Source: Adineta ricciae
Lineage: Eukaryota; Rotifera; Eurotatoria; Adinetida; Adinetidae
Assembly (NCBI GenBank): GCA_905250025.1
Contig: CAJNOJ010000094.1
Location: 6,193 to 70,192 of the forward strand
Length of the DNA: 64,000 nt
Direction of reading: 5' to 3'
Part shown: one piece after another, positions 1,043-24,714 of the stretch
Position numbering within the stretch: the first letter of the stretch is position 1
How the letters are laid out: every line of letters starts with the position of its first letter
Notes under the pieces: model-generated
Databases searched by the model: none
Seen by the model: the letters and a program-made list of their open reading frames with translations, nothing else
What the model was told of the DNA's origin: nothing
Translations under genes and position numbers: made by a program

Positions 1043-1269
1043 CTGCTTTGCCACCGACGAAACATGACAACAAAAGATTTTTTTTCATCATTTACTCGTG
1101 AATTTTATCAAATAAAGTAGAACATGACTCGATTTTTCGAGAGAAGTACGATTAAGAAAAAAAACATCAAATCAATACGCGATCTTCTTTGTCATAACTA
1201 AGCTCTGTAGGATTATTTCATTGAACGATAAAGCTAAATAATTACAAAAGATTGTCCGGAAGGCGCTTA

Positions 1270-2023
1270 TCATTGCGCAGTACTTTCTAATTGACTTTTC
1301 AAACGTTGAATTTCGAATTTTTGCTTCAAACATAGATCTTCCGATTCTTTCAATTTTGTTTGTTTATCCTTTAATTTCGCTTGTTGCTTTTGTACGAACA
1401 ATTCCAGAAGATGACAACGTAATTCAATTGGAAGTTCAGGCTTATTCCATTGTCCCATATCGAAATGACTGGTTAGTTGCTCACAGATATGTTCTTCAAG
1501 TTTGTTCAAACGATACAACTGAGCTAATGCGAGTAGATCAAATAGACGCGTTTGGTTATCACCGTATTTATACGAAGCGATGTTGGTCGTTGATGAAATT
1601 AGAAAACGTTCGATATTTTTACGTAGAATCAATATTGAATATTCATCAGATAATGGAAGAAGATATGTTGCATTGACATTATCGATTGGTTTCAATATAT
1701 TTGGATAGACACATTTTAATAGTTCAACAATGTGGAGATATTGTTTGCCCGGAAGGTTAATTTCACTTGTTTTAGATTCACGAAATCCTGACGAGAATAA
1801 CATTCGCCCAAAGACAGGTGACACTTTTGCTGAAAAACAAGTGAAATGAAACGAGAAAGTTCTTCAACAGTGTTTTTCCTTTACCGAGAATAGATTTATG
1901 AGCAAAGATCTTCTTCTCTTCTACAATTAAGGTCACGTCAGATATCTCATCAGCTGTTGTGAATGAATCAATCATTTGTTCCTCTTCGTCCATTTGCTTT
2001 CTTTGAGATGAAGTAACTCGCAT
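1270..2023 (-). CDS. BTB/POZ-domain protein (copy A)
   Basis: Complement of exons 1886..2023 plus base 1885, and 1270..1829; the intron is 1830-1884 (gtaaag...tttcag). Splicing gives 232 residues and restores the BTB core AHKSILAKVSPVFGRMLFS, which neither open frame shows alone. The BTB fold covers about residues 25-130 (ISDVTLIVEEKKIFAHK onward). The last ~45 residues, rich in Lys, Gln and Glu (KQQAKLKDKQTKLKESE), look like a coiled coil. BTB proteins of this build usually dimerise and act as Cullin-3 adaptors, but no MATH or Kelch partner domain is present, so the function is inferred only. The gene lies convergent with the PARP-like gene to its left. Confidence 0.86.
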
Positions 2024-2339
2024 TTATTAGCAGTTTTTTTATACAGGTAGAGTATTACCATATATGGTCAAAAGAAGCTAGCATGAGTCATCGGAGTCTT
2101 TCATATGTATGTCCTTTTATGGAAATCGCATAGAAACCGACAAAGATATAAATAACTCATATACCAGCGAGGAAGTAAAGTATGTTTTTGCTTATTTATC
2201 TTCAAATTTTATTCTATAGATAGCGAGTGATAGTTTGGTTATCATTAGATTTACAAAAATGAACATATGGTCCAAGCTTAGACGATTCTTCGTTTAAAAC
2301 GAGTTTAACATGAGATAGAATCGTTCGAAATCGATTATT
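2024..2339. other. Intergenic region, BTB gene to RING/TRAF gene
   Basis: This AT-rich stretch separates the 5' end of the BTB gene from the 3' end of the RING/TRAF gene; both genes are on the minus strand. It contains no convincing coding frame, RNA gene or repeat and should hold the BTB promoter. The counterpart at 17707-18028 is well conserved. Confidence 0.6.
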
Positions 2340-3956
2340 TTATGCGTAAGGACCCACAATATGTCTGTTTATCGACGAACGATCGAAATGATCGTTGGCA
2401 GATCGAGGATAACCACTAGCTTCTGAATCACCATCCGATCCGTGCTCGGCTATACCAAAAGTATTGTGATGTATTGGTGGAAGCAAACGATTATTAAGAC
2501 GATTACGACTTCTATTAACAGTTTGACCATTGCCTCCCGTAGGGTTTGTATCAGCATATCTGTATCCCACAGTACTTCCATGGTCGACACCACCGCCAGC
2601 ATTGGTATTTTCACCAATATTAATATTCACATTACCACAGTGGGAATTACCCTGAACAGTCAGCTGAAGCATAGGCTGTTGGCGGTCGACTGGAACTGTT
2701 GGCTGAATATCAGGGTTTACAAAAGGTCTGATGCGTGCGTCAGAAGGAGAGGTAGTTTTGCGAATATCGTGGACCTCTGACGCTCGGGAATTTTCGTCGG
2801 TATGAGGTAGTTCAATGATAGGTTCACCAGAATTCGTTTCACGAGCGACACCGATCTGTGCACACATGGAGGAAACAATACGATCTGAATTTACAGGTTG
2901 AGTCGGAATTGTACATCGATCATCTCTCAGTTGTTGATTGCCCAAATCGTCTAAAAAATTATTTAGATTTATTGTGATATACGCTAGTTCAATGTATATT
3001 CGATACAATCCCCACTTTGCCTTATATAAAACTCTATCTTCAACAGAATCTCGTACTTCTTAGTGTCAAAATATGGAGCAAAAACAAAAACCAATGTTTG
3101 CCATTGCATCTGTAATTCTCATCCTAACTCGTATATAATGTTTGTATGCTCTTACCGTTCATTTGATTTGACATGAGTACTATTTTTTTCCTTCAGTTTC
3201 ACTTGCGAGTGACGAATCGATGTTGACAGAACTGTGATTCGGATTCTTTTGGTTCCTTTGGATTTCTAGCGTAGAACCACAGTAAAATTCGGCGGGTCTA
3301 TCCTCATATCTCTGTTCATCTACTTTCTCCGCTGTTTGTTGAATGTAATTTAAAAATTGGGCGATTGAGGCTTGAAAGTTTTGCAAACGATTTTGCAAAT
3401 CTTGTAATTGTTTCTGTTGTTCGATTATGATACCATTTTGACGAACATTGTCAGCGGCTAGTTTCTCTACTTTGTCGTTCATTTGTTGTAGAGCAGTATA
3501 TGATTCAGCAATATGGTCTCTAAACAGGTAGAAAACACATTTTTCCAAATGTTTCTGCAGTTCACGACGCGACCCTTTCCACGAACATTTGTCATTCGCT
3601 GATGAACATTGAACAATAACCTCTTGACACATCTCGCGATAATGAGTGTCGAATTCACCTCGAGTTAGTCTTTTTTCTTTACAGTATGAGCATTTGATTG
3701 GCAATTCGTTCAATATATCTCGAAGAAGTTCATTGGTATTGGGTGTTAGATCATCTTTTGACACATTTTGCTTGCACGTAGGACAATACTCATAAGTTGC
3801 CAGATGAATTTCTATACACCGACGACAAAAGGTATGCTGTTTACTCGCACATTTTGTCGATACAGGGTCTATGAATGGATCCTTACAAATATCGCATTTG
3901 ATTAGTTTATCAAGAGATTTGTGTTTTCTATATCGATATGCGTGAGCAAGTGCCAT
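2340..3956 (-). pseudogene. RING/TRAF-type zinc-finger protein, frameshifted copy (A)
   Basis: Complement of 3156..3956 and 2340..2950, intron 2951-3155. Starting at the ATG at 3956, the frame encodes a C3HC4 RING at about residues 21-62 (CDICKDPF ... CRRCIEIHL ... CPTCK), a TRAF-like Cys/His region at about 85-140 (CSYCKEKRLTRGEFDTHYREMC) and a coiled coil. Relative to copy A' one C is missing after an A7 run near 3180. The frame therefore ends after 258 residues (…ETEGKK) before the splice donor, and the low-complexity 3' exon, still open in its own frame, is disconnected. The RING may still make a functional shorter E3-like protein, so this is a truncated allele rather than a dead gene. 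Confidence 0.8.
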
Positions 3957-5074
3957 CAAGGTCCTCCAATCAAAGATGTATCTAAAACAAAATGTATTCA
4001 ATATAGTCTTTTGCAGAATCTCGCAGCAAGAGAGAGTCTGAAGAAAACGCAAACATTTTTGTATTTTTGATGTATGAAAAGAGAAAAAAAATCTGTAGCA
4101 TGCTATTCTTTTGTTTGTGACGACAAAATGTTTTGATCATGCATGAGAACAGAAAAAATAACGCACTTTTTATAAGAAGACTTTTTGTGATTTTCTTACT
4201 CGGTAAAAACCAACTTAGGATTTTACTTCCAAATACAAGAAACTTCTTGACTAATCAAACGCATATTTTATTTGATCCATGCATTCTATAGAATGCAATA
4301 TGTGTAAAACGCCACTTTCTGCGAATTTTAACGGACAACTATTTCTCATTTTGATCGTTCAAGCAAAAAGACGCGGTTTAACGACCAAAAAAAAACATAC
4401 TCATCAATCCTTAACCTCCTGAATACCGAGAGAGATTTTTTTGTTCTGCTAAAAACTAAAAAAAAGATGATGAATCACCTGCTCTAGTGAATTTAGCTGA
4501 TAAACAACGTGATAGAACGCGAGAAAATATCTTGTGCCTCTACCTTGTGTCCAGCATGAAAACAACGGTATTGAAGAAGTTAGTAGACAAATCTGATGGT
4601 TTGCGTTAGAATCAATGCGGCATAGCTTAGACTCAAATTTTTCTATAAATACGCCTTTCAACTTCGACCATAGGTGGTTCCAAACCGAGCATAATGGGCT
4701 ATACGGTCTCGAACCATACCGTTTTCACTCTCAAACTGACTTCTGTTCGATACATTGTGGTGCAAGAATGTATACATTGTGCAGCAGTTGCCGCTTTCCT
4801 AGAATAGGAGACATGGAAAAGATTGAAAAGGCAAACAGAATCTTTTTTCTACGTAAAATTTAATTAAAAACCAGTTTTCTTTTTTGTCAACAAACTTGGT
4901 AATTAACCATAAACGATGAAGTAGGTTTTTTCCTTGCGACAAAGTATGCGAAGGATCAGGCATGCCCATCCGTATTCCATTTGAGGGTACAGTATCCCAG
5001 AAACACTTGTACCCTTTGGGGTACGCATTTTGCACCCCATTTGAATCCTTTTGACTTTGAATTACTTATGAATT

Positions 5075-5117
5075 GAGGGTGTGGGTGTGGGTGTGGGTGT
5101 GGGTGAGGGTGTGGGTG
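5075..5117 (+). repeat. Interstitial telomere-like repeat (TGTGGG)n, copy A
   Basis: About seven consecutive GTGTGG/GTGGGT-type units, one with an A variant (gggtgaggg). TGTGGG is the telomeric repeat described for Adineta bdelloids, so this tract resembles telomeric DNA fixed inside a chromosome arm. It falls inside the interval where copies A and A' are not alignable. Confidence 0.8.
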
Positions 5118-5521
5118 CAGCCTACAACGGCACAGTCAGGATCAATGTGAACGGCATTCTTTACCGGTAGTTGGCTGATAACTGATAGTCTTATAGTTAA
5201 TAAATGATTATGTAGTATTTAATAGTCAGATGCCGATTACTGGGTAGTCGGTTGATTGATAATAAGTAATCGGTTGGTAAATATATAATTAACTGTTACA
5301 TAATAGTTAATAATTAGTCATTCAAGGATTTACGATCAACCACTTACGAGTTGGTAAGCGGATGCCTCGAAACTTCGAATTATAAATTTAGAAGTTTGGA
5401 AGTTTAAAACTCGAATCGAATTAACGATTTCTACACTACTCTCATATTCATACTCAAAGTTTTTCATCTACGAAAAGAAATGAAATGCAGTACGATAAGA
5501 TCGAAGAAGGTAATATTTATA

Positions 5522-5571
5522 TAAAAAAAAAAAAACATGCGCCCCAACACACACACACACACTTTTTTCTC
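5522..5571 (+). repeat. Poly-A and (CA)n microsatellite before GH78
   Basis: A run of A (about 13) is followed after a few bases by seven or so CA units, ending within 10 bp of the rhamnosidase start codon. The A' copy has the A run but only a short ACACAC. It is a simple-sequence tract with no other visible role. Confidence 0.75.
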
Positions 5572-5579
5572 TATCGCAC

Positions 5580-8500
5580 ATGTTCTATATCTATGCGTTT
5601 GTTATCAATTGTATCCTAAGAACTGTTGTTTGTCAAGAAACTGCAGCTCCTTACGATATACGTGTCGATCATTATAAAGTTGATGTAACAAAAGATTTAG
5701 TAATCAATACTGCGCGTCCTCAAATATCGTGGAAAATCGCAGCGTTCAACGACGATCGAAACGTCTATCAAACAGCTTATCAACTTCAAATTCAATCACG
5801 CAAAACACAATGGGACAGTGGGCAGATAATATCAAAACAATCACTTCATGTTTCTTATACTAATCTCGATGAACTGCATTCGACGACGTTCTACCAACTT
5901 CGTTTACGAATTTGGACCACGTTGTCGAACGAATCAAGTGCCTGGACCGAATGGATACGTTTCCGAACGTTTATGTTTGATATTCAAACGACGATTGCAA
6001 ACAGAGCAAGTGAATTCATGTGGATAGGATCGAATATGATACCTAGAAATGAGTTTCGAAAAGAATTTCAAGTGCCAGGTGGAAGTCCAATTCAATCGGC
6101 AGTCGTTTTTATATCTGGTTTGGGATATTATGAATTATATGTCAACGGAAATAAAACAGATTTGAGTCGGAAATTAGATCCTGCGTGGACTGTATACGAA
6201 AAACGTACATTATTGGTTTCATTCGATCTATCCACGATTATTAAAGTAATATGACATGTAGTTTTACTTGTAAATAGAATTGTAATTATTTCGTTCACTA
6301 TCTACAGGTGGGAATGAATGCAGTTGGTGTTCGATTGGGGAATGGATGGTATAGTCGAGAGCAAAATACTTTTCCAATGCCACCAGCTCAACCTCTCTAT
6401 GGTAGTTATTGTAAACATTCTTTTGTAGAGATATTTTAGTGGCACTGTTTACAGGTTCACCCCGTTTTCTGTTTTATTTGAAGATTTTCTTCGAAGATGG
6501 AAGCGAATTCGATCTGGGGAGTGACACGACTTGGATAGGGCGTCAAAATGCTATTCTACACGATAGTATTTACAATGGAGAATTCGTTGACAGTCGCTAT
6601 GATCGCCCCAATTGGTCGCAGATAGGATTCAACGACACACTTTCGTTGTGGTTACCAGCTGACGAAATGCCATCTCCATTAAACAAAACCTTACCTGGTC
6701 ATCTAGTCATGCAAGATATGCCTCCGATTCGTGCAGGAGCTGATGCGTTACATATTGAAGTTTCGACTGAACCTATTGGCGAGTATTTAAAACCGAGCGA
6801 ATTTGGTCAAATTCTGGGCGGTAAGTTGAGTGATGGTGGGGTCTTAAAACCAATTGCCACATGGTCACCAACTATAGGTCTGTGTATCTTGTTCGAAAAT
6901 GATAATTCTTATTGCAATTGATTATTTTTTATAGGAGTACAAGTGTTCGATATGGGTCAAAATATGGCTGGTTGGTGTCGAATAAAACTTCGAGGTCCAC
7001 GCGGTGTTGGCATCTATATTCGTCATGGAGAAGTGCTGACTCTACCAACTGTTACCACGAAGTAATTAAATAACACGAATGTGTCAAACGATTATAATTC
7101 GGTCAAACATTTTCTTTTAAAGACAAGCCAGTGGCGAGGTGTACACAGAAAATCTTCTTGGTGCGACTCAATCTGATACCTATGTATTACGTGGAGATCC
7201 AGCAGGTGAAATCTATGAGCCAACGTAATTAGTTGTTCACATTTTTCTACGTATCTTATGATTTCTGTTCCTTTCTTTTTGTCACATTAGTTTCACCTAT
7301 CATGGGTTTCGCTATGTGTCAATTTATAATGTGCAGGGTGAAATGGCACTTGGGGATGTAGAATGTCCCGTTGTTCACAGTGAAACAACATTGAAAGGAC
7401 ATTTCACGACAAGTAATCCAATTATCAATCAGATTCAACATAATATTCAGTGGAGTCAGCTGAATAACCTTATGTCACTACCAACAGATTGGTAATCTAT
7501 ACAAATGAAGATGAATGTTCTTCTTCTAGCGTAACTAAATCTCTTTTTTCTCTTCCGTTGTTTAGTCCGCAACGACAAGAACGTCGAGGGTGGTTGGGCG
7601 ACGCCGCTTTAACTGTGAATGAAGCTTTGTACAATTTTGATCTGATCAAATTATACATAAATTTCCTTCATTCGATTGTTGATAGCCAAGGTCCTGATGG
7701 TTCCGTACCTGATACCGTACCGTTTGCAGACGGTGATTATCCAGCTGATCCCAATTGGGGTAGTGCCTTTCCAACTATTGCTTGGCAAGTCTATCGTCAT
7801 TATAACGATCCTGAAGTTCTGTATAATTTCTACACTAATATTCGCACTTACGTTGAAAGTGTTCATACGGCTTATAAATCAACCGGCTTAGCAGGCCTTT
7901 TCTATTCATATAGTGATTGGGTGCCTCCTCCGCCAGAGCCAAGAGTGAATGGATCTCTCGCTTCATCATTTGCTTTTCTACATGATGTGTCGTTGTTAGT
8001 CAATATATCTCAAGTTATTCATAATACAAACGATACAGCTGTGTATTTGGCATTATATCAACGATTAGCCGAAGAATTTCATCAAGTCTTTTTCAATCGC
8101 ACATCGAATTTCTACGATGACGGTTCACAAACTGCACAGATATTTGCTCTCGCTCTACCCAACGTAGTGCCAAACAATGTTCGTCATTTTGTCCTAGACC
8201 GTCTAGTATCAGATATCAACCAAAAAGATATCCATGTTTCAACAGGAATTCTCGGCACTGCCTTTTTGTATCCATTGTTATCAGACAACGGCTATCATGA
8301 TCTCGCACTTCGACTGATAACATCCACTACCTATCCATCGTATGGTTATATGTTCAACAATCCTTATGAAAATGCTACAACTCTTTGGGAACTTTGGAAT
8401 ACACCTTTCGAAGGACCGCAAATGAACTCGCGCGATCATATTATGTTTGGAAGTGTTGGTGCTTGGTTCTACTCTCACTTAGCAGGTATTGATTTTGACA

Positions 8501-8862
8501 CAGATTCCATTGTCATTCATCCACGTTTGGTAACTGAAAGCAACAAACATCTTCTACCTAAAGTTGACTGTCAACTGAATACTAGACATGGTCTCATTCA
8601 TGTTGCATATACTCGCGATGCAACACCGAACTCGATTCGACTTCGACTTCATATTCCACCAAACACGCGAGCTCGAGTGATATTTGAGCCGTTGTTTTCC
8701 GAAGCTAGATGCTCTCGAATCATTGAAGGAAATGAACTGATCTGGCTAACGGATCGAAACTCGACTTTTAACAAACAGAATCTTGAACTCGAGCTCAAAA
8801 CTGGCTCAATGATTGCTTGGATCGGTTCCGGCAAATACGAGTATGAAGTTTATTGGGAATAG
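5580..8862 (+). CDS. Secreted GH78 alpha-L-rhamnosidase (copy A)
   Basis: Seven exons: 5580-6245, 6308-6401, 6455-6877, 6935-7061, 7123-7224, 7291-7491, 7566-8862; 969 residues. Every intron is 53-75 bp and GT-AG. Residues 1-19 form a signal peptide (MFYIYAFVINCILR then CQ). A fibronectin-like and beta-sandwich region is followed by the (alpha/alpha)6 catalytic domain. The acid-side block reads TDCPQRQERRGWLGDA, so Asp537, Arg541, Glu543 and Trp547 match the conserved Asp, Arg, general-acid Glu and Trp of GH78. Glu813 in TTLWELW is the likely base. The enzyme should release terminal alpha-L-rhamnose from plant or microbial glycans outside the cell. GH78 is mainly bacterial and fungal, so a horizontal origin followed by intron gain is likely. 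The Asp usually found just before the acid Glu is Gln542 here. Confidence 0.93.
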
Positions 8863-9048
8863 ATTAATTGAACAAACAAACTAAAATACTTTTGATCCAT
8901 ATAGTGGATTCTTTTCATTTAGGATATCATTTAATCATAGTGTTTTTCTTTTTGTGCGATTTAAGAATACAAATTTTAATTAATTAAAATCAAAATAGTG
9001 TGAATTAAATCAATTTCAACTTGGAGTCGACTATCGACTTGATGATCT

Positions 9049-9634
9049 CTAATGTTCTTGCGAATGTCTATTGCATTTTCTGCATATACCCTTTCTACCA
9101 GCTTCACAGCGTCCATAATCATGTGGTGCAGTTGATTCATCAATTTCCTCCGGTTTATCTGCACGCTTATTCGCGTTTTCATCACGTATACCGTAGAAAA
9201 CATCTAGTATCCAAGTACACATCCAGTATGCCGTCCATGCTAAACTCTCAATATCAACAAGAGACCCTTGACAGTAAATGTTACACCCTTGACAAGCTTG
9301 TTTTTCTATACGAACTTGAATAACATTTGTATTTCTCCGAGCTCTCCAAACGACAGTCGTAAAAGACGACTTCCACACTTTCTTGCACCGAGGACAGGTG
9401 AATCTATTTTTTCGCGGAAAATAAGTCAGAAAATGGTCAAAATACAATTCAAACTCACTTTCCTTTAGCATTATGTGTTCGAAATGGCCATCGTTCTTTC
9501 TGTCCATCTAAAGCGTCTCGACGAGTGTTCACCCTAGGCGGCATCGGTTCGATGATCCATTCAGGTACTGCGTGGTATTCTAAGGCATCATAGAACGTCG
9601 ATTCTATCGAACGAAACCATTTGTCTTTTGCCAT
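9049..9634 (-). CDS. 3CxxC-type zinc-finger protein (copy A)
   Basis: Complement of 9459..9634 and 9049..9403, with a 55-bp intron; 176 residues from the ATG at 9634. The second exon opens with FTCPRCKKVWKSS, continues with QACQGCN and ends in GICRKCN. With an intervening His/Cys (HDYGRCE) this is the spacing of the 3CxxC zinc-binding domain of receptor-transporting (RTP)-like proteins. In vertebrates RTPs help odorant and taste receptors reach the surface and some act in innate immunity. Here only the zinc domain is recognised and there is no C-terminal membrane anchor, so the role is unknown. The gene is convergent with GH78, 186 bp away. Confidence 0.8.
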
Positions 9635-10901
9635 ATCTACACTTGTTATTGAAGAAAAACGCAACTAAAAAATATGAAAGGACTGTTTGTCTCTCCCATG
9701 GTTTTCGTTGTTTCTTATTAATAAATCATGTAAGTAAAGAGGAGAGACTAAAAGTAAATGTTGTTTCTTATTACGGTGTGTCTTTCGATGAAAATTTTAC
9801 CTTGTTTAAAACGTATTGATGTGATTTTGTTTCGTGACGAAAAACGCTTTGCCAGCCTTGTCGATCACTTTGGTAACCATATTTTCGTAGCGATCACACT
9901 TCATTCGCGTTTTTGTAGCATACAACATTGACGAGAAACACTTCGCAAGGTTTGTTTTTCCCTAAGGAAATGCTACCTGAAAAGAGAAAAAACATAAGTA
10001 ATGGGTATTAAATGAAAGCTTGCGTCAAATAAGTCAATCATCTGAATACAAAATCAGGATGCGTACCAGTTTAATCCCTGATCTGATAATTCAATCAATA
10101 TCGATGATTTTATTCAATTAAGTATCCCAACTGATCATTCTGATTTTCAATTTTATGCCCAATAAATTTAGCGAATGCATTCTCCTTGGTCGGTTGTCAT
10201 GAAATTGTAATCGGATTCTAGACAACACATATTCGACTCTTTACTTCTCCTTCATATAATGTTACCAATACTTAGATATGTTTTTTTATGTATGAGTCTT
10301 TCAATATACGTTTTATCAATAATATATCAACACTTTTGATAAATCCAAGAGAAAAGTCACATCACTTTTGAACGAAATTTTCAATTAGGTGGATAACAAT
10401 CTGAACTATAGGTAGTCCATCAAAACCGATCAAATATTTTTCTTTAGAAATAATAATAAACGTAGTAGCTATTCTGAAAATTCATATCCAGAACGAATAA
10501 TATTCGAGTTGAATGACTCATGTGATGCAATAACGTGTACATACCATGACTGTATTCTTCGAGATTGAAAGTTTTGATAAAAGAAGAACAATTTCTTTTA
10601 TCCTTTTCTTCTTTGAAGATTTTTTTTATCATATGACTCATGACATCGATTAGTCAATGTGTTATCGGGAAAGTGAATAAGCTGATGTCGTCTACTCACT
10701 AATTAATTACTCGAAACCCTAAAAATTTAATTTCTCGGACCAATACTAATACGTATGTTGATAATCCTTGAAGATTATTCATCATTCTTCTTTTTTAAAA
10801 ACTTTATCGAACCAAATAAATCACATAGCACCGTAAATGACGTGTCTATTTGTATCTGAAATAAATCAACTGTCATTCTATCATTTCACTTTGAAAGCAG
10901 A
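9635..10901. other. Intergenic region, 3CxxC gene to YHGT-domain gene (copy A)
   Basis: About 1.27 kb without a supported gene. A 65-codon minus-strand frame at 10444-10641 has a similar counterpart at 26047-26259, but indels change its N-terminal half and no domain is visible, so it is not called. The sequence is otherwise AT-rich, with the 3CxxC promoter on its left side. Confidence 0.6.
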
Positions 10902-11771
10902 TCAAACTTCAGTTAAATGAATTAACACACCATAGGGCACTACTGCTGCTCTTACTTCCGTAAAGATTTCAATTTGATCATTCGGTATAAATGGGCACAG
11001 TCGCTTCGAGCCAGCATTGATTGTTTCACCTTGTACTTTGTATGATCCCGGTTGTTGACGGCATTGAAGAACAAGGCGTGCATCGTAGGTTTTACCAGTT
11101 TGTTGTGAATGAAAGCGTTGTGGAGGACAGTAAGCTTCATAACTTGAATACGCGATCGTTGGAGACGTGTAAATATGATTTTTTCCGGGAATATGGTCGG
11201 GCAGTATGGCAACTTTTGTACCATCTATACAAGTGTCACCGGGTAAGAGAAATTGACGGTGCTGAATGATCGATTGAGCGGCCATCGGACGTGTTCCGTG
11301 ATAGGTTACGATCCATTTACTCCAAATACGATCAATGTCAGCGCGAACTTGATCAACATGTAGACCAAATCGACACCAACCACGCGGAAGAACATATTTT
11401 GAACCACCTTGAACAGTGGTATCTTCGCGTGAGCTAGAATAACAGTTTTCGCAGTAACAACGGTTATGTTGACGATCAAAAAAACTTTTATCCCATCTCA
11501 ATGACGATAAATATTCTGCACAGACTTTTTTATACTGGCATGAAACAGGAGTGTCATTTTCCCGCGGAGTTATTCTATGTGCTGCTGCTGATGATGATGC
11601 TCGTGGACGGATATGTCCTAACGAAATTCGAGGACTTCGATCGTGTTTTGCAAATGGAATTGTCGACGGCGACGCACGCAAAGATGTAGTGAATTCTTTT
11701 CTGCAGTGTGGACAAGATCTTAGCTGAGTAGGAGGCGTTTCGCGATGGCAATTGCTACAGCGACGGGGCAT
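10902..11771 (-). CDS. Zinc-ribbon plus YHGT-domain ART-like protein (copy A)
   Basis: A single exon of 289 residues. Residues 5-23 (CSNCHRE...CPHC) form a zinc ribbon. Residues 78-112 hold a second Cys cluster (CYCENCY). The rest is a domain with PRGWCRFGL, WIVTYHGT (His158), GKNHIYTSPTIAYSS (Tyr201) and NDQIEIFTE (Glu268) before a final PYGVLI strand. This order resembles the H-Y-E layout of PARP/ART folds, and from memory it also resembles the C-terminal region of NEURL4-type proteins. ADP-ribosyl transfer is possible but unproven. The start is 237 bp from the divergently transcribed paralogue at 12009, so the two may share a promoter region. Confidence 0.72.
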   Translation of the reverse strand: MPRRCSNCHRETPPTQLRSCPHCRKEFTTSLRASPSTIPFAKHDRSPRISLGHIRPRASSSAAAHRITPRENDTPVSCQYKKVCAEYLSSLRWDKSFFDRQHNRCYCENCYSSSREDTTVQGGSKYVLPRGWCRFGLHVDQVRADIDRIWSKWIVTYHGTRPMAAQSIIQHRQFLLPGDTCIDGTKVAILPDHIPGKNHIYTSPTIAYSSYEAYCPPQRFHSQQTGKTYDARLVLQCRQQPGSYKVQGETINAGSKRLCPFIPNDQIEIFTEVRAAVVPYGVLIHLTEV

Positions 11772-12008
11772 CGGTTATGCCTCAATAAAATAATATCTTG
11801 AAACAGTGTGAAACTTCCAACATGCGACTTATTTGCTTTCGTATGTGAGTAATATTTATGCACTTCTGATTTTACCTTTTTTTCTGTTCTATAATGTTTA
11901 TGGCAAGTGTATCGCAGTAACGCTCCTTTCTTCTCGTCAAAGCAGAACTAAAAAAAAATTGCTTTTCAACAAATAGCCAACAAAAAGACGTTAAGTCATT
12001 CGCTAAGA

Positions 12009-13403
12009 ATGTCTGTAATAACAAATTCTTCTCTTCTTCCTACTACATCACAGAGTCAACAGGGTAGATCATAGAGTTAATAGGGTATCATTTATGTATA
12101 TTTCATTGATTTTTTAAAGGAAGCTCTCGGTCTTTGAGTACAGCAGAAGTTGCTGGAATCGTTATTGGATGTATTGCTGGCATCGTTTTGATCATCATAC
12201 TTTGCGTTTGCGCTTCAAAATGGAGAAAAAAAAACAGAGATAGACGCTCAAAAGGTATGCTAATTTAACATAATCTAATCGCGTGATCAAAGTCTTTTAT
12301 CGTTTCTCATTAAAAAAAACCATCACGATTTGATTTTACACATAGCACCTGGAAAGTCGGCAACACCTTCACCACCACTGAATCCTAATGTTGTGGTTAA
12401 AAATGAGTTACCAATACTGAAGCATGTTACACCGAAACTAGATCGTCACCGTCCACTGCCTACACCAAAACCGAGTCACCATCCACCGCCTACACCAAAA
12501 CCGAGTCACCATCCACCGCCTACACCAAAACCGAGTCACCGTCCACTGCCTACACCAAAACCGAGTCACCATCCACCGCCTACACCAAAACCGAGTCACC
12601 ATCCACCGCCTACGCCAAAACCGAGTCACCATCCACCGCCTACGCCAAAACCGAGCCACCATCCACCGCCTACACCAAAACCGAGTCACCATCCACCACG
12701 TACGCCGAACCCAGGTGATATTGCTCCAGGATCAGAAGCATTTCCATTATCTGATTTATGTCCACAAAATCTACATACACAATATTCTAAAAGAATTCTT
12801 CGTCTGGACAAACTTTATTTTGATTTTGCTCATAATCTGTGCTTTTGTTCATATTGCTATCCCAGTACAAAACCTGATCGATTCACAGTGGCTCAATCTA
12901 TCTATACTGTTCCGAGAGGTTGGACACGTTTTGGTCTTCGAGTCGACAGCACCGTAATAGCTAATCGCAATTTATTTAAACGATGGTACACAGCTTTCTA
13001 TGGGACATCAAGTGATAAAGTCGAATTGGTTATGCGCAACCTTTACGTACCTATGCCTGGTGACAAACTGTTAAGTGGTGAAACATTCAGTACACATTTA
13101 CCGGATAAAACGCATGTTTACACGTCACCATCTATTCACTATGCTTCCCTAAGACATATATGTCCAACCGATGTTGTAAAAATGAACAATGAGTGGTATG
13201 ATGTTCAAATCGTGCTGGAGTGTAAACAAAATCCCGAAGGAATCATCAAACAAGCAGGATATAAGAAAAATGTATGTCAGATTATACCCGATGATCAAAT
13301 CGAATGGAAGACAGATCGCAGAGCATCAATTGTGCCATATGGTCTTCTTATTCGTAGTCGAAAACATCGATGTACCAAAAAATGTGCAGATTTACATTCT
13401 TAG
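12009..13403 (+). CDS. Membrane-anchored proline-repeat protein with degenerate YHGT domain (copy A)
   Basis: Exons 12009-12063, 12120-12254, 12346-13403; 415 residues. The two short exons give a ~26-residue N-terminal tail, one transmembrane helix (VAGIVIGCIAGIVLIII) and a basic stop-transfer segment (SKWRKKNRDRR). A proline-rich linker with eight full decamers of PPTPKPSHH type then leads to a domain homologous to the neighbouring minus-strand gene (PRGWTRFGL, THVYTSPSIHYAS, DDQIEWKTDRR, PYGLLI). Where the neighbour has TYHGT this protein has AFYGT (Tyr282), so the presumed catalytic His is lost in both copies. It is probably a type III membrane protein with the domain in the cytosol, acting as a binding or decoy module. 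An AATAAA lies at 13485. Confidence 0.78.
12450..12689 (+). repeat. 30-bp coding minisatellite, eight units (copy A)
   Basis: Eight consecutive 30-bp units encode [RH]P[LP]PTPKPSH, with third-position variants, flanked by one degenerate unit on each side. The repeat makes the proline-rich linker of the membrane-anchored YHGT protein. Copy A' has two units fewer, so the tract expands and contracts in whole codon units. Confidence 0.93.
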
Positions 13404-13600
13404 ACCAAGAGCTGTTGAATCAAAGCCAAGTATTTGTTGTGAAAATCTGTCTTAAAAACTAGCGTGTGCTTTCTCATTTATTTTAATAAAAGTTTAACAG
13501 TAAGAACAATTCATTTTACTGTCGTGATATGTTCGATTTTCTGAACCAAGCAAATTCATCATGAAGAAGGAATAGATAAGCATGGAATAAATGCACGAAT

Positions 13601-14458
13601 CTAGTACTGTATTGTATGACCAAACACACTTTTTGTTGTGTCAACTAGATCAATACTGGTTTTCTGTTCAGCGATAGCACGAATCTCATAATTAGCTAAC
13701 TTTTTTGTCCATAGACAGAAATCAGCGAGACAACCAAAATAATACCAACTACGCAAATTCCATCTTCTTAGTGAGTGGCGCAGCAAAGGAGAATCTCTAC
13801 ATGGATAATCAATAACTCTATTTCCATTGAGAAAAACTTGAATATTTTCATTAACTTTACATTCAAGGACAAGCGTAAAATGAATCCATTTGTCTAATTC
13901 AAGTTGAGTACAGTCTTGTTCGATAAATTTCTCGATGGTATTCGTAATCACTACACTGCCAGTGTGAAAATCGAGTTCGAGTTGTAACGTTGTGTCATTT
14001 TCAAAAGAAAACTCCATAGCCAGCTTTTTCAAGTGATCAGAACTGCACATAATTATCCAGAATGAGAAAGTCCATTGAGTAAAATCATTTGCTGCTAATT
14101 CATAATGCACCGATATCCTCGAGTTGCTATGCCTCAAACAAGGTAAATGATAGAAGAAATCCTTGTCGGTATAAAATACATTTTGAACTTCAGGACAAGT
14201 TTCAGCTGATCTGCTTCGGATCGTTTGGTCAGCAGATACAAAATTTTTATAAAGATTGTTTCGTTCAGTGAATTTAAACCAAATTTGTAAATTGTCCATA
14301 AAACGAAAGCGTTGCCTTGTTGAATATTCTTTTAAAAACCATTTCTTCAGAATTAAATTACGAAATAGACTGCAAACAGCCGATGTTTGAGCAAGGTCTT
14401 CTAACGAAGGAAGGAATAAGAAGATTTGTTGCCAAAGTTCCGGTGGAAGTGTTGCCAT
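13601..14458 (-). CDS. F-box protein with LamG-like domain (copy A)
   Basis: A single exon of 285 residues from the ATG at 14458. Residues 1-45 are an F-box (MATLPPELWQQIFLFLPSLE, then LAQTSAVCSLFRNL). Residues ~110-270 form a concanavalin/LamG-like beta-sandwich (WTFSFWIIMCSS, LDKWIHFTLVLEC, IQVFLNGNRV, YYFGCLADFCLW). F-box proteins link substrates to SCF (Skp1-Cullin1) ubiquitin ligases, and the LamG-like part is the presumed substrate reader. The frame upstream of this Met is open to 14530, but that extension is not conserved in A', so the internal Met is chosen. The gene is convergent with the preceding gene. Confidence 0.84.
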   Translation of the reverse strand: MATLPPELWQQIFLFLPSLEDLAQTSAVCSLFRNLILKKWFLKEYSTRQRFRFMDNLQIWFKFTERNNLYKNFVSADQTIRSRSAETCPEVQNVFYTDKDFFYHLPCLRHSNSRISVHYELAANDFTQWTFSFWIIMCSSDHLKKLAMEFSFENDTTLQLELDFHTGSVVITNTIEKFIEQDCTQLELDKWIHFTLVLECKVNENIQVFLNGNRVIDYPCRDSPLLRHSLRRWNLRSWYYFGCLADFCLWTKKLANYEIRAIAEQKTSIDLVDTTKSVFGHTIQY

Positions 14459-15475
14459 TAAACGTGGCTGTAAAAATTGCGAAAAAAAGAAAGTATTTCT
14501 CAATTCAAATACAATATAAAAAAAAAACAACTATATTTTCGTCTATGTTGCAATGCAGATATGTAACACGTGATCATTCGGTAGTATAGGAACAGAAAGC
14601 AAAAGATCTCTCAGACGATTTATGAGTCATGGTAAACACGCACGAAAAAAATTGAGAATGTAAAATATTGAATGCTTTTTTCTCTTTGGATGGCATTTAA
14701 AGACACTTAAATTATTAAAAATAAGAATCATTCGTCTATTTCATAATCATCAGACGGTATCTAAATAACTGCTCTTGTTTCGTTTACTTGTTTTCTTATA
14801 GTTCAGGATTAAAAAAATAACTGAAGTCGAGTATTAAACTCTCATAAATATATGGTACGACGTGCATCCTTGGTAGTCAGATTAACGACATGGCGTTTGT
14901 CTTCGCACCAGTTTACTGTTATCGATATCACGACACTATTGGAAACTGTTTCAATAGTTATCATAGGTAGGGTGTGAAGGTGGGTGTAGAGAATAGAATG
15001 TTGCCTGTATTGGTGCACAGTCGATCCACTTATAGCCCCAGCATACAGACTAATATACCCAAAGCAAATTGAGAAATATCATTGGCTATTTTACATTGCA
15101 ATGTGAACTTTATCGGTTAACTCGATGGCAATTTTTTCCGCCCGTTTGATTCCGTGGAAGAGAAAGTTAAACACCCTCCTTCTCAAAATTAAAACCAATT
15201 TCTGTATCTTGAATTATTTGCATGAAACATTGTTCGATAAGATAATTACTCAAAATAAATATGAATTCTATTTTAATTCGATTGAAGGTCAATCAAATGA
15301 TTATCAGTAGAGAGTCATGTTACTCATTTTCGCTGTACGTTTCACATTGAAATCAATGCCATGCATTGACTATCGACATCCTATCACTGCCTTAAACAAA
15401 GAATTGAAAACAAAGTCAACTTGATCACTGCACTTTTCATTGCAACTGAAGTTATAACTGTCGATACACCTTCAA
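14459..15475. other. Intergenic region, F-box/LamG gene to sugar transporter (copy A)
   Basis: About 1 kb between divergently transcribed genes, so it should hold both promoters. A short degenerate telomere-like stretch (tagggtgtgaaggtgggtgtag) sits at 14967-14992. No coding frame is supported: the 61-codon frame at 15125-15310 is interrupted in A' by a 33-bp deletion and lacks any domain. Confidence 0.6.
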
Positions 15476-15660
15476 ATGTTATCGCGAGCAGATTATCAAG
15501 TTTATGGTACAGCAGTATTTGCTGCCATTGGTGGTTTTCTATTTGGTTATGATCTCGGTGTGATTTCCGGTGTGATCACCATGTCGAACTTTATTGCTGT
15601 TTTCGGCGATCAAGCAAGTATGTCGCGTGGATCGTTGACTAGCAGTATCTCAGGATCAAT
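15476..15660 (+). CDS. MFS sugar transporter, 5' fragment (copy A)
   Basis: The first 61 codons of a hexose transporter: TM1 with GGFLFGYDLGVISGV, the usual signature of the sugar-porter family, followed by the first extracellular loop. The sequence then runs into the N gap. It is identical in protein sequence to the start at 31089. It is truncated by the assembly, with no sign of mutation. Confidence 0.9.
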
Positions 15661-15704
15661 NNNNNNNNNNNNNNNNNNNNNNNNNNNNNNNNNNNNNNNN
15701 NNNN
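15661..15704. other. Assembly gap of 44 N
   Basis: A run of 44 N lies between the 5' part of a sugar-transporter gene and the middle of a PARP-like gene. The sequence on the right restarts in the homologue of position 38 of the window. The gap therefore joins the end of one copy of the block to the start of the other, and nothing can be said about real adjacency across it. Confidence 0.99.
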
Positions 15705-16725
15705 TCGCATGCTTATTTCGATATTGATAAGTTTCAAGATGAATTACATAAGTACGACATCTCGTGTACGGTTTGCTACGATAATTGGCGATATATATTG
15801 GTACTTGATGAGAATAAATCTACCGGCCCATTTACAATGGATTTGATTGAACCGCATGTGGCATTGACACAAGATCGAATTGATTTCGACGTGAGTAATC
15901 TATCGTTGGAAAAAGACTACACCCACGAATTGGGTATGCGCATTGATATTACTCAAAAGCCGTATTCGATTGAATTGGAGGCTATTGTTGAGAATATAAA
16001 AAACAAGCGTTTTCTCACTCTTCGACCCATCGATAATAATCTCAATAGAAGAATTGCAAAAATGAAAGATAGAGGCTGGACACAAATGGAAGGCGGTTTA
16101 TCGGTTATCCCAGAACCGCACAAGGAGTATCATGCGATTCTCGTTCCATTACCTCGATCATCTGATTTACACGCTGCGATTTGTCAGAAAATGAGAAATA
16201 TACCAGGTGTACAAGTTAAATCTATCGAAGAAATACGGAATCCATTTTTGGAAGAAATCTACGAAGGCATGAAGAAAATAATCAAACGACAATGTCCTAA
16301 AACGACTTCGTGCGAGCATCCTGGATTATTTCATGGAACCCAAGGAGATGGTATCGACGGAATCACTGACGACGGGTACGACGACCGATTTTTCAATACC
16401 GGCGGTCTATATGGCAAGTACTCAAACTCGATTTACTCTTTCGTCTACGTTTATTCTCATATTCCGTTTAGGACATGGTGCGTATTTTGCTGACGATCCG
16501 CTCAAATCACATAATTATACTGATAAAACTAGCAAGACACGTGTTATGTATTATAACAAAGTCTTACTGGGTGAATCGATGGTACTAAATGAACCGGACA
16601 AAAACTTAGTTTGTGCGCCAAAGAATTACCATTCGATTATCGGAAAACACAATCAGATGACCGAATATATCATTTATCGGTATGGGCAAGCTTTACCATG
16701 TTTGAAAATCGTCTATACCGTTTAG
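15705..16725 (+). CDS. PARP-like ADP-ribosyltransferase, 5' end in gap (copy A')
   Basis: Exons <15705-16413 and 16472-16725. The protein matches the first copy except for a few changes (for example HGTQGD for HGTKGD and VQVKS for VEVKS), and the H-Y-E residues are kept. The intron starts gcaagt instead of gtaagt, making it a GC-AG intron, with the same length (58 bp) and an intact acceptor. An AATAAA lies at 16795. The function is as for the first copy. Confidence 0.87.
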
Positions 16726-16952
16726 CTGCTGTGCCATCGACGAAACATGACAACAAAAAAATTTTTTTACATTATTTACTCATGAATTTTATCAAATAAA
16801 GTAGAATATGATTCGATTTTTCGAGAGAAGTACGATTAAGGAAAAAAAATCAAATCAATACGCGATCTTCTTTGTCATAACTATGCTCTGTAGGATTATT
16901 TCATCGAACGATGAAGCTAAATAATTACAAAAGATTGTTCGGAAGGCGCTTA

Positions 16953-17706
16953 TCATTGGACAGTACTTTCTAGTTGACTTTTCAAACGTTGAATTTCGAA
17001 CTTTTGCTTCAAACATAGATCTTCCGATTCTTTCAATTTCGTTTGTTTATCCTTTAGTTTCGCTTGTTGTTTTTGTACGAACAATTCCAGAAGATGACAA
17101 CGTAATTTAATTGGAAGTTCAGGCTTATTCCATTGTCCCATATCGAAATGACTGGTTAGTTGTTCACAGATATGTTCTTCAAGTTTGTTCAAACGATACA
17201 ACTGAGCTAATGCAAGTAGATCAAATAGGCGCGTTTGGTTATCACCGTATTTATACGAAGCGATGTTGGTCGTTGATGAAATTAGGAAACGTTCGATATT
17301 TTTACGTAGAATCAATATTGAATATTCATCAGATAATGGAAGAAGATATGTTGCATTGACATTATCGATTGGTTTCAATATATTTGGATAGACACATTTT
17401 AATAGTTCAACAATGTGAAGGTATTGTTTGCCCGGAAGGTTAATTTCACTTGTTCTAGATTCACGAAATCCTGACGAGAATAACATTCGCCCGAAGACAG
17501 GTGACACTTTTGCTGAAAAACAAGTGAAATGAAACGAGAAGATTCTTCAGCAGTGTTTTTTCTTTACCGAGAATAGATTTATGAGCAAAGATCTTCTTCT
17601 CTTCTACAATTAAGGTCACATCAGAGATCTCATCAGCTGTTGTGAATGAATCAATCATTTGTTCCTCTTCGCCCATTTGTTTTCTTTGAGATGAAGTAAC
17701 TCGCAT
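16953..17706 (-). CDS. BTB/POZ-domain protein (copy A')
   Basis: Complement of 17568..17706 and 16953..17512; 232 residues. The intron is the same length as in copy A (55 bp) and the BTB core across the splice is preserved. Differences are few (for example MGEEEQ for MDEEEQ, RESRTSE for RESKTSE, ESTVQ for ESTAQ at the end). Both copies look functional. Confidence 0.86.
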
Positions 17707-18028
17707 TTATTTATAAGCATTTTTTTTATACAGGTAGAGTATTACCATATATGGTCAAAAGAAGCTAGCATGAGTCATGGGAGTCTTTCATATATATGTC
17801 CTTTTATGGAAATTGCATAGAAACCGACGAAGATATAAATAACTCATATACCAGCGAGGAAGTAAAGTATATTTTTCGCTTATTTATCTTCAAATTTTAA
17901 TTCAATAGATAGCGTGTGATAGTTTGGATATCATTAGATTTACAAAAAAGAACATATGGTCAAAGCTTGGGCGATTCTCCGTTTAAAACGAGTTCAACAC
18001 GAGATAGAATCGTTCGAAATCGATTATT
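17707..18028. other. Intergenic region, BTB to RING/TRAF gene (copy A')
   Basis: The counterpart of 2024-2339. It is conserved apart from point changes and small indels, with no gene or repeat seen. Confidence 0.6.
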
Positions 18029-19590
18029 TTATACGTAAGGATTCACAGTATGTCTGTTTATCGACGAGCGATCGGAAAGATCGTTGGCAGATCGAGGATA
18101 ATCGCTAGCTTCTGAATCACCATCTGATCCGTGCTCGGCTATACCAAAATTATTGCGAGGTATTGCTGGAAGCGAACGATTACCAAGACGAGCAAGATTT
18201 CTATTAACAGTTTGACCATTGCCTCCCGTGGTGTTTGTATCAGGATATTTGTGTCCAATAGTACTCCCATGATCAATACCACCGCCAGCATTGGTATTTT
18301 CACCAATATTAATATTCACATTACCACAGTGGGAATTACCCTGAACAGTCAGATGAAGCATAGGCTGTTGGCGGTCGAGTAGAACTGCTGGCTGAATATC
18401 AGGGTTTACAAAAGGTCTAATGCGTGCCTCAGAAGGAGAGGTAGTTTTGTGAATATCGTGGACCACTGACGCTCGGGAATTTTGGTTGGTATGAGGTAGT
18501 TCAATGATAGGCTCACCAGGATTCGTTTCACGAGCGACATCAATGTGTGCACATACGGGGGAAACAAAACGGCCTGAATTTACACGTTGATTCTGACTTG
18601 GGCATCGATCGTCTCTCAGGTGTTGCTCGTCGAAATCGTCTAAAAAATTATTTAGATTTATTGAGATATACACTAGTTCAATGTATATTCAAAAATACAA
18701 AAATTAATGTTTGCCATTGTATCTATAATTCTCATGCTAACTCGTATATAATGTTGGTGATGGTTTCATGATGTTTGCATGCTCTTACCATTGATTTGTG
18801 TTGATATGAGTGCTAGTTTTTTTCCTACAGTTTCACTTGCGAGTGACGAATCGATGTTGATAGAACTGTGATTCGGATTCTTTTGGTTGTTTTGGATTTC
18901 TGGCGTAGATCCACAGTAAAATTCGGCAGGTCTATTCTCATATTTCTGTTGATCTACTATTCCCGATGTTTGTTCAATGCAATTTAAAATTTGGGCGATC
19001 GAGGCTTGAAAGTTTTCCAAAAGATTTTGCACATATTGGCATTGTTTTTGCTGTTCGATTATGACACCATTTTGACGAGCATTTTCAGCGGCTAGTTGCT
19101 CTATTTTGTCGTTCATTTGTTGTTGAGCAGTATATGATTCAGCAATTTGGTCTCTAAACAGGTAGAAAAAACATTTTTCCAAATGTTTCTGCAGCTCACG
19201 ACGCGGCCCTTTCCACGGACATTTGTCATTCGCTGATGAACATTGAACAGCAACTTCTTGGCACGTCTCGCGATAATGAGTGTCGAAGTCACCTCGAGTT
19301 AGTCTTTTTTCCTTACAGTATGAGCATTTGATTCGCAATTTGTTCAATATATCTTGAAGAAGTTCGTTGGTATTGGGTGTTAGATCATCTTTTGACATAT
19401 TTTGGTTGCACGTAGGACAATACTCATGAGTTTCCAGATAAATTTCTATACATCGACGGCAAAAGGTATGTTGTCTACTCACACATTTTGTTGATACAGG
19501 GTCTATGAATGGATCCTTACAAATATCACATTTGAATAGTTTATCGAGAGATTTATGTTTTCTATATCGATATGCGTGCGCAAGTGCCAT
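18029..19590 (-). CDS. RING/TRAF-type zinc-finger protein, intact copy (A')
   Basis: Complement of 18789..19590 and 18029..18639 (intron 18640-18788); 470 residues from the ATG at 19590. The order is a C3HC4 RING (residues ~21-62), a TRAF-like zinc region (CSYCKEKRLTRGDFDTHYRETC), a coiled coil rich in Gln (QQQMNDKIEQLAAENARQN), and a long polar, probably disordered C-terminal part with a conserved GNSHCGNVNINIGENTNAGG segment. The exon join AAT-G|AC keeps frame. RING plus TRAF zinc fingers points to an E3 ubiquitin ligase with a trimerising coiled coil, but no MATH domain is present. Both copies have a tttag/ATA or tttag/GTA site just 5' of the ATG, possibly a 5' UTR intron end or trans-splice acceptor. 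Confidence 0.82.
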
Positions 19591-19962
19591 CAAGGTCCTC
19601 AAATCAAAGATATACCTAAAACAAAAAGTATTCAATAGTCTTTTGCTGAATCTCGCAGCAAGAGAGAGTCTGAAGAAAGCACAAACATTTTTGTATTTTT
19701 GGTGTATGAAAAGAGAAAAAAATCTGTAACATGCTACTCTTTTTTTTGTGACGACAGTGTTTTGATTATGCATGAGAACAGAAAAAATGACGCACTTTTT
19801 TATCAGAAGACTTTTTATGATGTTCTTCCGGGGTAAAAACCAACTTAGGACTTTACTTCTAAATACAAGGAACTTCTTGGCCAATCAAGTGCGTATTTTA
19901 TTTTATCCATGCATTCTATAGAATTCAATATATGTAAAACGCCGCTTGCTGCCAACTTTAAC

Positions 19963-20020
19963 GGGTAAGGGTGTGGATGTGGGTGTGGGTGAGTGAGGGT
20001 GAGGGTGTGGGTGTGGGTGA
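19963..20020 (+). repeat. Interstitial telomere-like repeat, copy A'
   Basis: A tract of gggtaagggtgtggatgtgg and gtgggtgagggtgtgggtg units, a degenerate (TGTGGG)n array. It begins exactly where the alignment with copy A breaks (A: ttaacggacaac; A': ttaacgggtaag). A second weak tract, gagggtgggtgtggatgagg, lies at 20261-20287. Confidence 0.8.
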
Positions 20021-20525
20021 AGATGGAAGTTTGAAAGTTTTAAACTCGAGTACTTAGGTTCTAACTTTATAACGTTTAGAAGTTGGATAGTTTAAAACTC
20101 GAATGCTTGAATTCTAAACTGAATGATTTAGAATTTGAACGAAAGTTTCAATATTCGAATCGAGTTAACGGTTTCTACACTACTCATTAATAGTGGATCC
20201 GAGCTCTGCGACCTCGATTACCTATCTGCTAGGCGGTCTCTAGTTGATAAGAGTAAATTTGAGGGTGGGTGTGGATGAGGTTGGGTGAGCTATTTTTATG
20301 ATTGGAATACATTTGTGTGCGAATCCGTTCAAGAAAAGGTCGAATCCGTGTCCAAGATATCCTACATAACATATGTTTTGTCTAGATGACACAACAAAAG
20401 ATAGGAATAACACGCATCAAACGATATTTCAGAAATAATTCATATGGTCATACGTGAAAGCGAGGGGTACAAATATATGTCATTTTACTTTCTGACTGTA
20501 GCGCCCAACATAAATATTACACGCT

Positions 20526-20996
20526 TCAGTCACCATTTATAGGTACAATACGTTCATGTATCTTGATTCGCTCACGAATCTTCCAATACACATGCAGACT
20601 GCTCCAAATAACGATAGGCAACCCTTCAGTCAGTCCACCACATAAACCAAGAATCGTAGTCAACAAGTATACAAAATTTTTTCTTTCGGCATATGGGTAT
20701 TGACACTTCGATGGTGCGCATATCGAGTAATAACTCGAATAATTAGATGAATTCTGCCATGATTCGATGAACAACTCATCAATCAAAGCACCAATTGGTG
20801 TTGATGAGATTGGTGTGAAACGACTAGGAATCGATCGATCCAAAGGCAACAGAACTAATGAACTATTGACAAATTTAGTTAATTTCTCCAAGCATCCTGA
20901 ACTGTAAAAGCATTCGAGAGTTGAAAGTCGAAAGCCATGAACAGGTAAACATCCGACAACGAGACCTACAAGGAAGAAGAAGTAGAATTCTATTCT
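20526..20996 (-). pseudogene. Orphan 3' exon of a two-TM bdelloid membrane-protein family
   Basis: The minus-strand frame is open from 20996 to the stop at 20526 but contains no ATG. It reads a hydrophobic segment (FYFFFLVGLVVGC), then STLECFYSSGCLEKL, Cys-containing ectodomain signatures YYSICAPSKCQYPY, and a membrane segment NFVYLLTTILGLCGGLTEGL. These signatures resemble an expanded family of uncharacterised bdelloid membrane proteins (recognised from memory). A possible splice acceptor (ttccttgtag) lies inside the frame, and no matching upstream exon is present. It is absent from copy A. It is best read as a truncated gene end carried by the rearrangement. Confidence 0.6.
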
Positions 20997-21235
20997 TCAT
21001 CAATATTTTACCAGCGAATGTTTCTTGGTTGTTCATGTTTTTCAGCTTCGATCTTGTGCATGTTGAGGAGTTTCATAAATATTATTCAACGACACTCTTT
21101 ACCATCATATTCATACTCAAAGTTTTTCATCTACGAAAAGAAATGCAATGCAGTAAGATAAGATCGAAGATGGTAATATTTATATAAAGAAAAAAAAAAC
21201 ATGTACCCCAACACACACTTTCTTCTCTATCGAAC

Positions 21236-24200: not shown

Positions 24201-24521
24201 AACAAACATCTTCTATCTAAAGTTGACTGTCAACTGAATACTAGACATGGTCTCATTCATGTTGCATATACTCGCGATACAACACCGAACTCGATTCGAC
24301 TTCGACTTCATATTCCACCAAACACGCGAGCTCGAGTGATATTTGAACCGTTGTTTTCCGAAGCTAGATGCTCTCGAATCATCGAAGGAAATGAACTGAT
24401 CTGGCTAACGGATCGAAACTCGACTTTCAACAAGCAGAATCTTGAACTCGAGCTTAAAACTGGCTCAATGATTGCTTGGATTGGTTCCGGCAAATACGAG
24501 TATGAAGTTTATTGGGAATAG
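21236..24521 (+). CDS. Secreted GH78 alpha-L-rhamnosidase (copy A')
   Basis: Exons 21236-21901, 21964-22057, 22111-22533, 22591-22717, 22779-22880, 22947-23147, 23225-24521; 969 residues. All seven exon lengths equal those of copy A. The signal peptide, Asp537, Arg541, Glu543, Trp547 and Glu813 are all kept, as is Gln542. About eight amino-acid changes fall in the last exon (for example QLYRHY, FYGDGS, NGHHDL). Both copies appear functional although their upstream DNA differs completely beyond about 135 bp, so their expression could differ. Confidence 0.93.
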
Positions 24522-24714
24522 ATTAATCGAACAAACAAACTAAAATACTTTGATCCATATAGTTGATTCTTTTCATTTAGGATATCATTTAATCATAGTG
24601 TTTTCTGTTTGTGCGATTTACGAATACAAATTGTAATTAATTGAAATCAAAATAGAGTGAATGAAACCAGTGTCGACTTGTAGTTGACTATCGACTCGGT
24701 GGTCTCTGAAGTTC

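Follow-up and report, generated by a model that had tools for sequence, protein, structure and literature searches.

Among the proteins with ADP-ribosyltransferase (ART) domains described to date, a few share features with the gene pair reported here, and what is said of them below follows the portions of the cited papers available to us. PARP13 (ZC3HAV1) is listed with Y-Y-V at the catalytic triad and is inactive (PMC7955679); it resembles the membrane-anchored protein of this work as a pseudo-PARP whose triad His is replaced by Tyr, and differs from it in being a cytoplasmic antiviral protein (PMC7955679, PMC9964302). DTX3L and PARP9 are arranged head to head with a bidirectional promoter in common (PMC4070648). 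PARP9 is said to be without activity of its own (PMC10789625), and another paper states that it needs DTX3L to be active and enters it as "M" in a table (PMC7955679). The PARP9/DTX3L pair is thus similar to ours in its head-to-head genes and in having one member that is a PARP said to be inactive alone, but DTX3L is an E3 ubiquitin ligase (PMC4070648) and not a PARP paralogue, and no membrane anchor is described in the available text. PARP16, said to be the sole human PARP with a known membrane association, holds its ART domain on the cytosolic side via one transmembrane helix (PMC10789625); its anchor is C-terminal and the enzyme is active, whereas the anchored protein described here has an N-terminal transmembrane segment and a domain predicted to be inactive. 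Among more divergent proteins, NEURL4 is listed as H-L-E, the LRRC9 family, in which the ART-like domain sits between leucine-rich repeats, is proposed to consist of pseudo-ARTs, and PARP-like domains undetected by Pfam are listed (PMC7955679). Such NEURL4- and LRRC9-type ARTs resemble the present family in escaping Pfam detection, a comparison made by description.

The window analysed in this work is a stretch of 64,000 nucleotides from the rotifer Adineta ricciae (C94:6193-70192 of a 130-Mb assembly, on which the genome searches were run), and the pair consists of a gene for a soluble protein with an ART-like domain and, head to head with it, a gene for a membrane-anchored paralogue that carries Tyr where the family has His. 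PARP13 is not known to us to serve as tethered partner to an active paralogue encoded beside it.

Gene organization in the window

The features of the locus are as follows (the exons of the anchored gene were drawn from splice signals and homology):

10902-11771, minus strand: soluble gene, single-exon CDS, 289 aa
10905-11552, minus strand: soluble protein, ART-like domain; a CxC..C motif upstream of it (residues 105-110) is conserved, from invariant columns of alignment A1
11298-11300, minus strand: codon of His158 in TYHGT, the presumed NAD+-binding histidine
11772-12008, unstranded: 237-bp intergenic region common to both genes, presumed divergent promoter
12009-12063, plus strand: predicted exon 1 of the anchored gene, encoding a short N terminus that is rich in Ser/Thr, carries an NSS sequon and presumably lies outside
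12120-12254, plus strand: predicted exon 2 of the anchored gene, a single transmembrane segment (about residues 29-51) and a basic stop-transfer stretch
12346-13403, plus strand: exon 3 of the anchored gene, Pro-rich linker, ART-like domain and Cys/Lys-rich tail
12445-12697, plus strand: 30-bp tandem repeat, 8.4 copies, encoding the TPKPSHHPPP linker of the anchored protein
12744-13400, plus strand: ART-like domain and tail of the anchored protein, keeping 21 of 28 family-invariant positions
12999-13001, plus strand: codon of Tyr282 in AFYGT, where the family has histidine

The soluble protein contains an N-terminal CxxC...CxxC stretch (ribbon-like by reading), a Ser/Arg-rich linker and a C-terminal ART-like domain, in which alignment places the presumed NAD+-site residues at His158, Tyr201, Tyr214, and Glu268. 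The anchored gene is predicted to have three exons and to encode a protein of 415 aa that spans the membrane once, through a segment that reaches a Kyte-Doolittle peak of 3.26; with the short N terminus outside and the basic stop-transfer stretch inside, its domain would face the cytosol. The two domains are homologous by sequence (38% identity; E = 1.1e-33 in the genome search), and the genes diverge from a gap of 237 bp between the two ATG codons (11772-12008), as the first-pass annotation had proposed in giving the genes homologous domains and about 230 bp of upstream DNA.

The pair occurs a second time within the window:

26508-27380, minus strand: soluble gene, second copy, 97-98% identical in the domain
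27615-27669, 27727-27861, and 27958-28946, plus strand: predicted exons of the anchored gene, second copy, Tyr kept

Blocks of 90.6-96.8% identity cover most of 22-15660, an N gap (15661-15704) ends the first copy, and the linker encoded by the 30-bp repeat is not of equal length in the two copies as aligned. The two copies are probably haplotypes that the assembler joined end to end, or they may be a true tandem duplication. His158 in TYHGT of the soluble protein and Tyr282 in AFYGT of the anchored protein, the latter earlier reported for both haplotypes, were confirmed in both copies. Across the window as a whole, two direct repeats extend over long stretches at about 90-97% identity (1-15660 vs 15705-31273, and 32814-40302 vs 56517-64000), and both are probably haplotypes set end to end in the same manner. 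Bacterial-type alpha-L-rhamnosidase domains (PF17389) are also encoded, at 7468-8862 (plus strand) with a copy at 23166-24521; the family, with at least 21 matches in the genome, is a candidate for horizontal acquisition.

A second head-to-head pair and the history of the pair

The genome search gave at least 48 matches to the soluble domain, at least 30 to the anchored domain of the window and at least 28 to the anchored domain of contig C100, and among the matches listed there was one further head-to-head pair, at C100:134013-136545:

C100:134013-134960, minus strand: soluble gene, 316 aa, SYHGT
C100:135388-136545, plus strand: anchored gene, 321 aa, four predicted exons, SYYGT

The two genes are 427 bp apart. 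In the anchored genes of the window and of C100, introns 1 and 2 are both of phase 1 and flank the membrane exon, and the exon order agrees; the linker of the C100 gene is interrupted by one extra intron. Over the N-terminal 90-100 residues the two anchored proteins align with a score of 86 (maximum 47 in 500 shuffles), which overstates their homology because membrane cassettes of this type are common; one like it is present at C72:352605, where the 3.6 kb read contained no ART domain. The pair is kept in two loci of this genome, with the His-to-Tyr change in both anchored members.

No flanking gene common to the two loci was found in about 7.5 kb read on each side at C100 (tblastn of the C100 frames on the window); one weak match pointed to 45308-45661 of the window (E 3e-6). 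Three neighbour proteins, searched genome-wide, gave at least 5 (F-box), 4 (zinc ribbon), and 21 (rhamnosidase) matches, none of them on C100. Since these searches gave no flanking gene common to C94 and C100, a whole-genome duplicate was dropped as the origin of the second locus in favor of copying of the pair as one unit.

A tree was computed from 23 full-length domains (alignment A1, 20 non-anchored and 3 anchored rows). In it the soluble genes of the two loci cluster together with support of 97/96, and so do the anchored genes with 92/87, which is below the starred level and involves long branches. After removal of the ten-row C36/C73/C89/C462 clade the supports were 86/95 for the anchored and 86/89 for the soluble clade; after removal of either the C100 or the C94 anchored row, the remaining anchored row stood alone on a long branch and not with its own soluble neighbour. 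An origin of each anchored gene from its own neighbour was rejected by topology tests for C100 (p-AU 0.0048) and for C94 (p-AU 0.0247), tests that are subject to the same model pull between long branches as the tree itself. Between the loci the soluble and anchored genes have like dS (2.03 and 2.11, near saturation), and their dN values are 0.36 and 0.77, i.e., the anchored genes evolve about twice as fast. Because of the tree groupings, the rejection of independent origins and the like dS of both genes, we propose that an old pair of an enzyme and its His-less anchored sister was probably copied long ago as a unit and stayed head to head; that the pair is older than its own duplication appears well supported, but long branches are involved.

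The main rival to a functional pairing is that the two genes are neighbours by descent only. An inverted tandem duplication would have placed them head to head, the anchored copy, being loosely constrained, would have been repurposed for an unrelated role at the membrane, and the layout would be a positional relic. The faster evolution of the anchored genes, which also fits the loss of an ancestral role, agrees with such a history, and the family forms other clusters as well (six C73 and several C36 matches on one strand). The weak sharing of words between the two intergenic regions points the same way: 9-letter words in common (4 + 4) were in slight excess, a number reached by 24 of 1000 dinucleotide shuffles, 8- and 10-letter words gave no excess (78 and 204 of 1000, respectively), and against plain shuffles, for which only means were taken, 8- and 9-letter words were shared at about 2-4 times the mean. 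A shared intergenic element is not claimed, as only the 9-letter sum stood out under dinucleotide shuffles. On the other side, both loci are still head to head within 430 bp at a dS of about 2, while the flanking genes differ in the stretch read at C100, and we consider a relic doubtful, although it deserves more weight than any other alternative to an old functional pair.

Active-site residues and constraint

The histidine is present in all 20 non-anchored rows of alignment A1 and is Tyr in all three anchored rows; it is also present in 8/8 rows of a remote group, A4, from the same genome, and YHGT is visible in the fragment loci L022, L028/L033, and L037/L038, L034/L035 being not clear. (The other 25 of the at least 48 matches to the soluble query are the 8 in A4, 7 fragment loci, 1 C72 match inside L037, and 9 remote matches left unread.) The remaining three presumed NAD+-site positions of the non-anchored rows are Tyr in 6 and Phe in 14 (the YTSPS tyrosine, Tyr201 of the soluble protein), Tyr in 20, and Glu in 20 of the 20 rows. 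The four positions read Tyr, Tyr, Ile, Glu in the anchored copies of the window (Tyr282, Tyr322, Ile335, Glu383) and Tyr, Asn, Phe, Val in that of C100. The Tyr (YTSPS) and Glu (QIEW) that the first-pass annotation had found still present in the anchored protein are indeed there, as Tyr322 and Glu383; it had not recorded that Tyr214 of the soluble protein, conserved in all 20 non-anchored rows, is replaced by Ile335. The soluble window protein thus has the H-Y-E residue set (His, Tyr, (Tyr), Glu) and the anchored protein does not.

Twenty-eight positions are invariant in the 20 non-anchored rows, and the anchored copies keep 21 and 20 (window) and 15 (C100) of them. Among those kept in the anchored domains are two Trp, the Gly-Thr that follows the His position, and all three Cys of the CxC..C motif. 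The retention of many structural residues together with the loss of NAD+-site residues suggests that the anchored paralogue is a pseudo-transferase, and its domain would transfer no ADP-ribose.

Comparison of the window copies gave dN/dS values of 0.092 (soluble domain), 0.475 (anchored domain), and 0.571 (whole anchored protein). In Fisher tests on rounded-down counts, constraint was significant for the soluble domain (p 3.7e-7) and only just so for the anchored domain (p 0.043), and the two domains differ in nonsynonymous change (p 0.0008, also on rounded-down counts); in anchored exons 1-2, 10 of the changes are nonsynonymous and 1 is synonymous (p 0.30, not significant). At the sequence level the anchored domain is under weaker but detectable constraint.

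A constrained domain of this kind could also act on its own as a reader or scaffold, in the manner of PARP13 or TASOR, and would then bind RNA, ADP-ribosylated proteins or a membrane partner with no involvement of the soluble enzyme. The loss of catalytic positions with 15 to 21 of 28 invariant residues kept is what such a protein would look like, and PARP13, with its inactive Y-Y-V, offers a precedent (PMC7955679, available text). This reading by itself does not explain the kept pairing, and we think it unlikely.

Membrane tethering is not special to the pseudo-form, as the C89 clade has C-terminal hydrophobic segments with the His intact. Two members of this domain family, L017 and L018 (C89:261174 and C89:283327), have long hydrophobic C-terminal segments (by reading) and are possibly a second, possibly active, membrane-bound form. 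Elsewhere in the genome the domain occurs in fusion with MORN-like repeats (C4, C100:234765, C551) or with many CxxC ribbons (C53, C36) at loci L013, L015, L016, L014, and L021, the repeat names being given by reading.

Probable relationship to ADP-ribosyltransferases

The window proteins of the pair gave no significant match in Pfam or NCBIfam, including PF00644, and no ART was matched when the family profile (A1) alone was searched against PDB. The A1 profile does match that of the remote group A4 (eight proteins, same genome) with a probability of 99.8 and E of 1.5e-27 over 160 columns. One A4 member, C197, scores 28.6 bits against Pfam PARP (cut-off 26.7); of the other A4 members scanned, 2/6 gave weak matches (E 0.029 and 0.15) and 4/6 none. 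Against PDB, A4 listed 35 sequences (about nine different proteins and their near-duplicates), each weakly (E 0.014-1.7), and all 35 we take by name to be members of the ART superfamily (PARPs, ADP-ribosylating toxins, and RNA 2'-phosphotransferases). For C197 itself, 16 of 17 PDB matches were to PARP14, 4, 10 or 15 (E 0.031-0.15), and the HGT and the spaced tyrosines of the soluble protein align with PARP14 through C197. The Glu of the soluble protein was assigned by pattern only, and a Glu is present by reading in 3/8 A4 rows, C197 not among them. In a direct profile comparison with two PARP domains of this genome, A4 reached 38.5% and A1 3% (not significant). AlphaFold models from four-row alignments of the window proteins (A3, A2) had pLDDT values of 35 and 38, and a fold comparison gave no match.

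We regard the ART fold as likely rather than established, since the link runs through the intermediate relatives A4 and C197, the direct match is 3% and the models are poor. The Phe in 14/20 rows and the variable Glu weigh slightly against the main reading and in favor of the possibility that the family is not an ART at all, its HGT and YTSP resembling PARP by chance or through very remote ancestry. That possibility draws on the lack of a direct significant match (Pfam, PDB with A1, and the two PARPs at 3%) and on the variation of the second and third triad positions in the wider family, but with a transitive link via A4 and C197, and weak PDB matches that are all, or all but one, from the ART superfamily, it seems improbable.

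Outside this genome, a pattern scan of GTDB contigs matched 124 stretches and scans of viral contigs 14 and 5, none of them confirmed, and a tblastn search of phages found none; relatives that lack the peptides chosen for the patterns would escape such scans.

The window also encodes a clear PARP catalytic domain at 42687-43373 (plus strand; PF00644, 50.3 bits), about 30 kb from the pair, and the genome has 125 PF00644 matches, a number uncorrected for allelic copies and exons. At 52018-53370 (minus strand) a frame of 450 aa has hydrophobic segments (by reading) followed by a PARP-like stretch of 21.4 bits, below the Pfam cut-off, and is possibly another membrane-linked ART-like protein.

Proposed function of the pair

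The gene models in outline, the divergent layout at two loci and the loss of His in both anchored lineages can be taken as demonstrated from the genomic sequence. Our tentative preference, at somewhat less than even chances, is for an old divergent pair made up of a cytosolic divergent ART and a membrane-tethered pseudo-transferase, the pseudo-domain of which binds the enzyme, its substrate or its product. Both proteins would be made from the shared intergenic region, the pseudo-domain would bind the soluble enzyme (or what it acts on or produces), this binding may hold or gate activity at a membrane, and the long Pro-rich linker would give reach. A stricter version, in which the two form a dedicated module, the tethered pseudo-transferase being older than the duplication of the pair, co-expressed with its soluble active sister from the shared promoter and recruiting or restraining it, is rather unlikely. 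It is very improbable that the anchored domain has remained active as a transferase with Tyr replacing His, since the equivalent of Tyr214 is Ile and the C100 copy has Tyr, Asn, Phe, and Val at the four positions, even though Tyr322 and Glu383 remain in the window pair and pseudo-ART status is described as hard to establish with certainty (review PMC10789625, available text).

The suggestion of the first-pass annotation that an enzyme is paired with a tethered pseudoenzyme has gained from the second old head-to-head pair with the same His-to-Tyr change, from a pairing that probably predates the duplication and from the His in 20/20 non-anchored rows; its enzymatic part depends on an ART fold that is supported only through intermediate relatives. 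Its view that the arrangement had not been described stands in part: the head-to-head promoter of DTX3L/PARP9 and the Tyr-for-His of PARP13 were known, and no enzyme with a tethered pseudo-paralogue was found in the literature searched, which included the available text of a PARP survey (PMC4245714) and lay outside subscription papers and preprints. Each ingredient is known singly, and that literature yielded no divergent pair of long standing in which an ART is combined with a tethered pseudo-sister of its own.

Conclusions

The domain family is without a significant Pfam match and is present in this genome in many copies. To our knowledge, little is understood of how a live ART domain can be controlled by a dead one, and if the proposed reading is true, two sister genes that differ in the presence of the His and have stayed head to head since a deep duplication would offer a natural test case. 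In Adineta vaga, 17 PARP genes are overexpressed 2.5 h after radiation (PMC10809525, available text), and because of this response unrecognised relatives of the kind described here may matter for stress biology.
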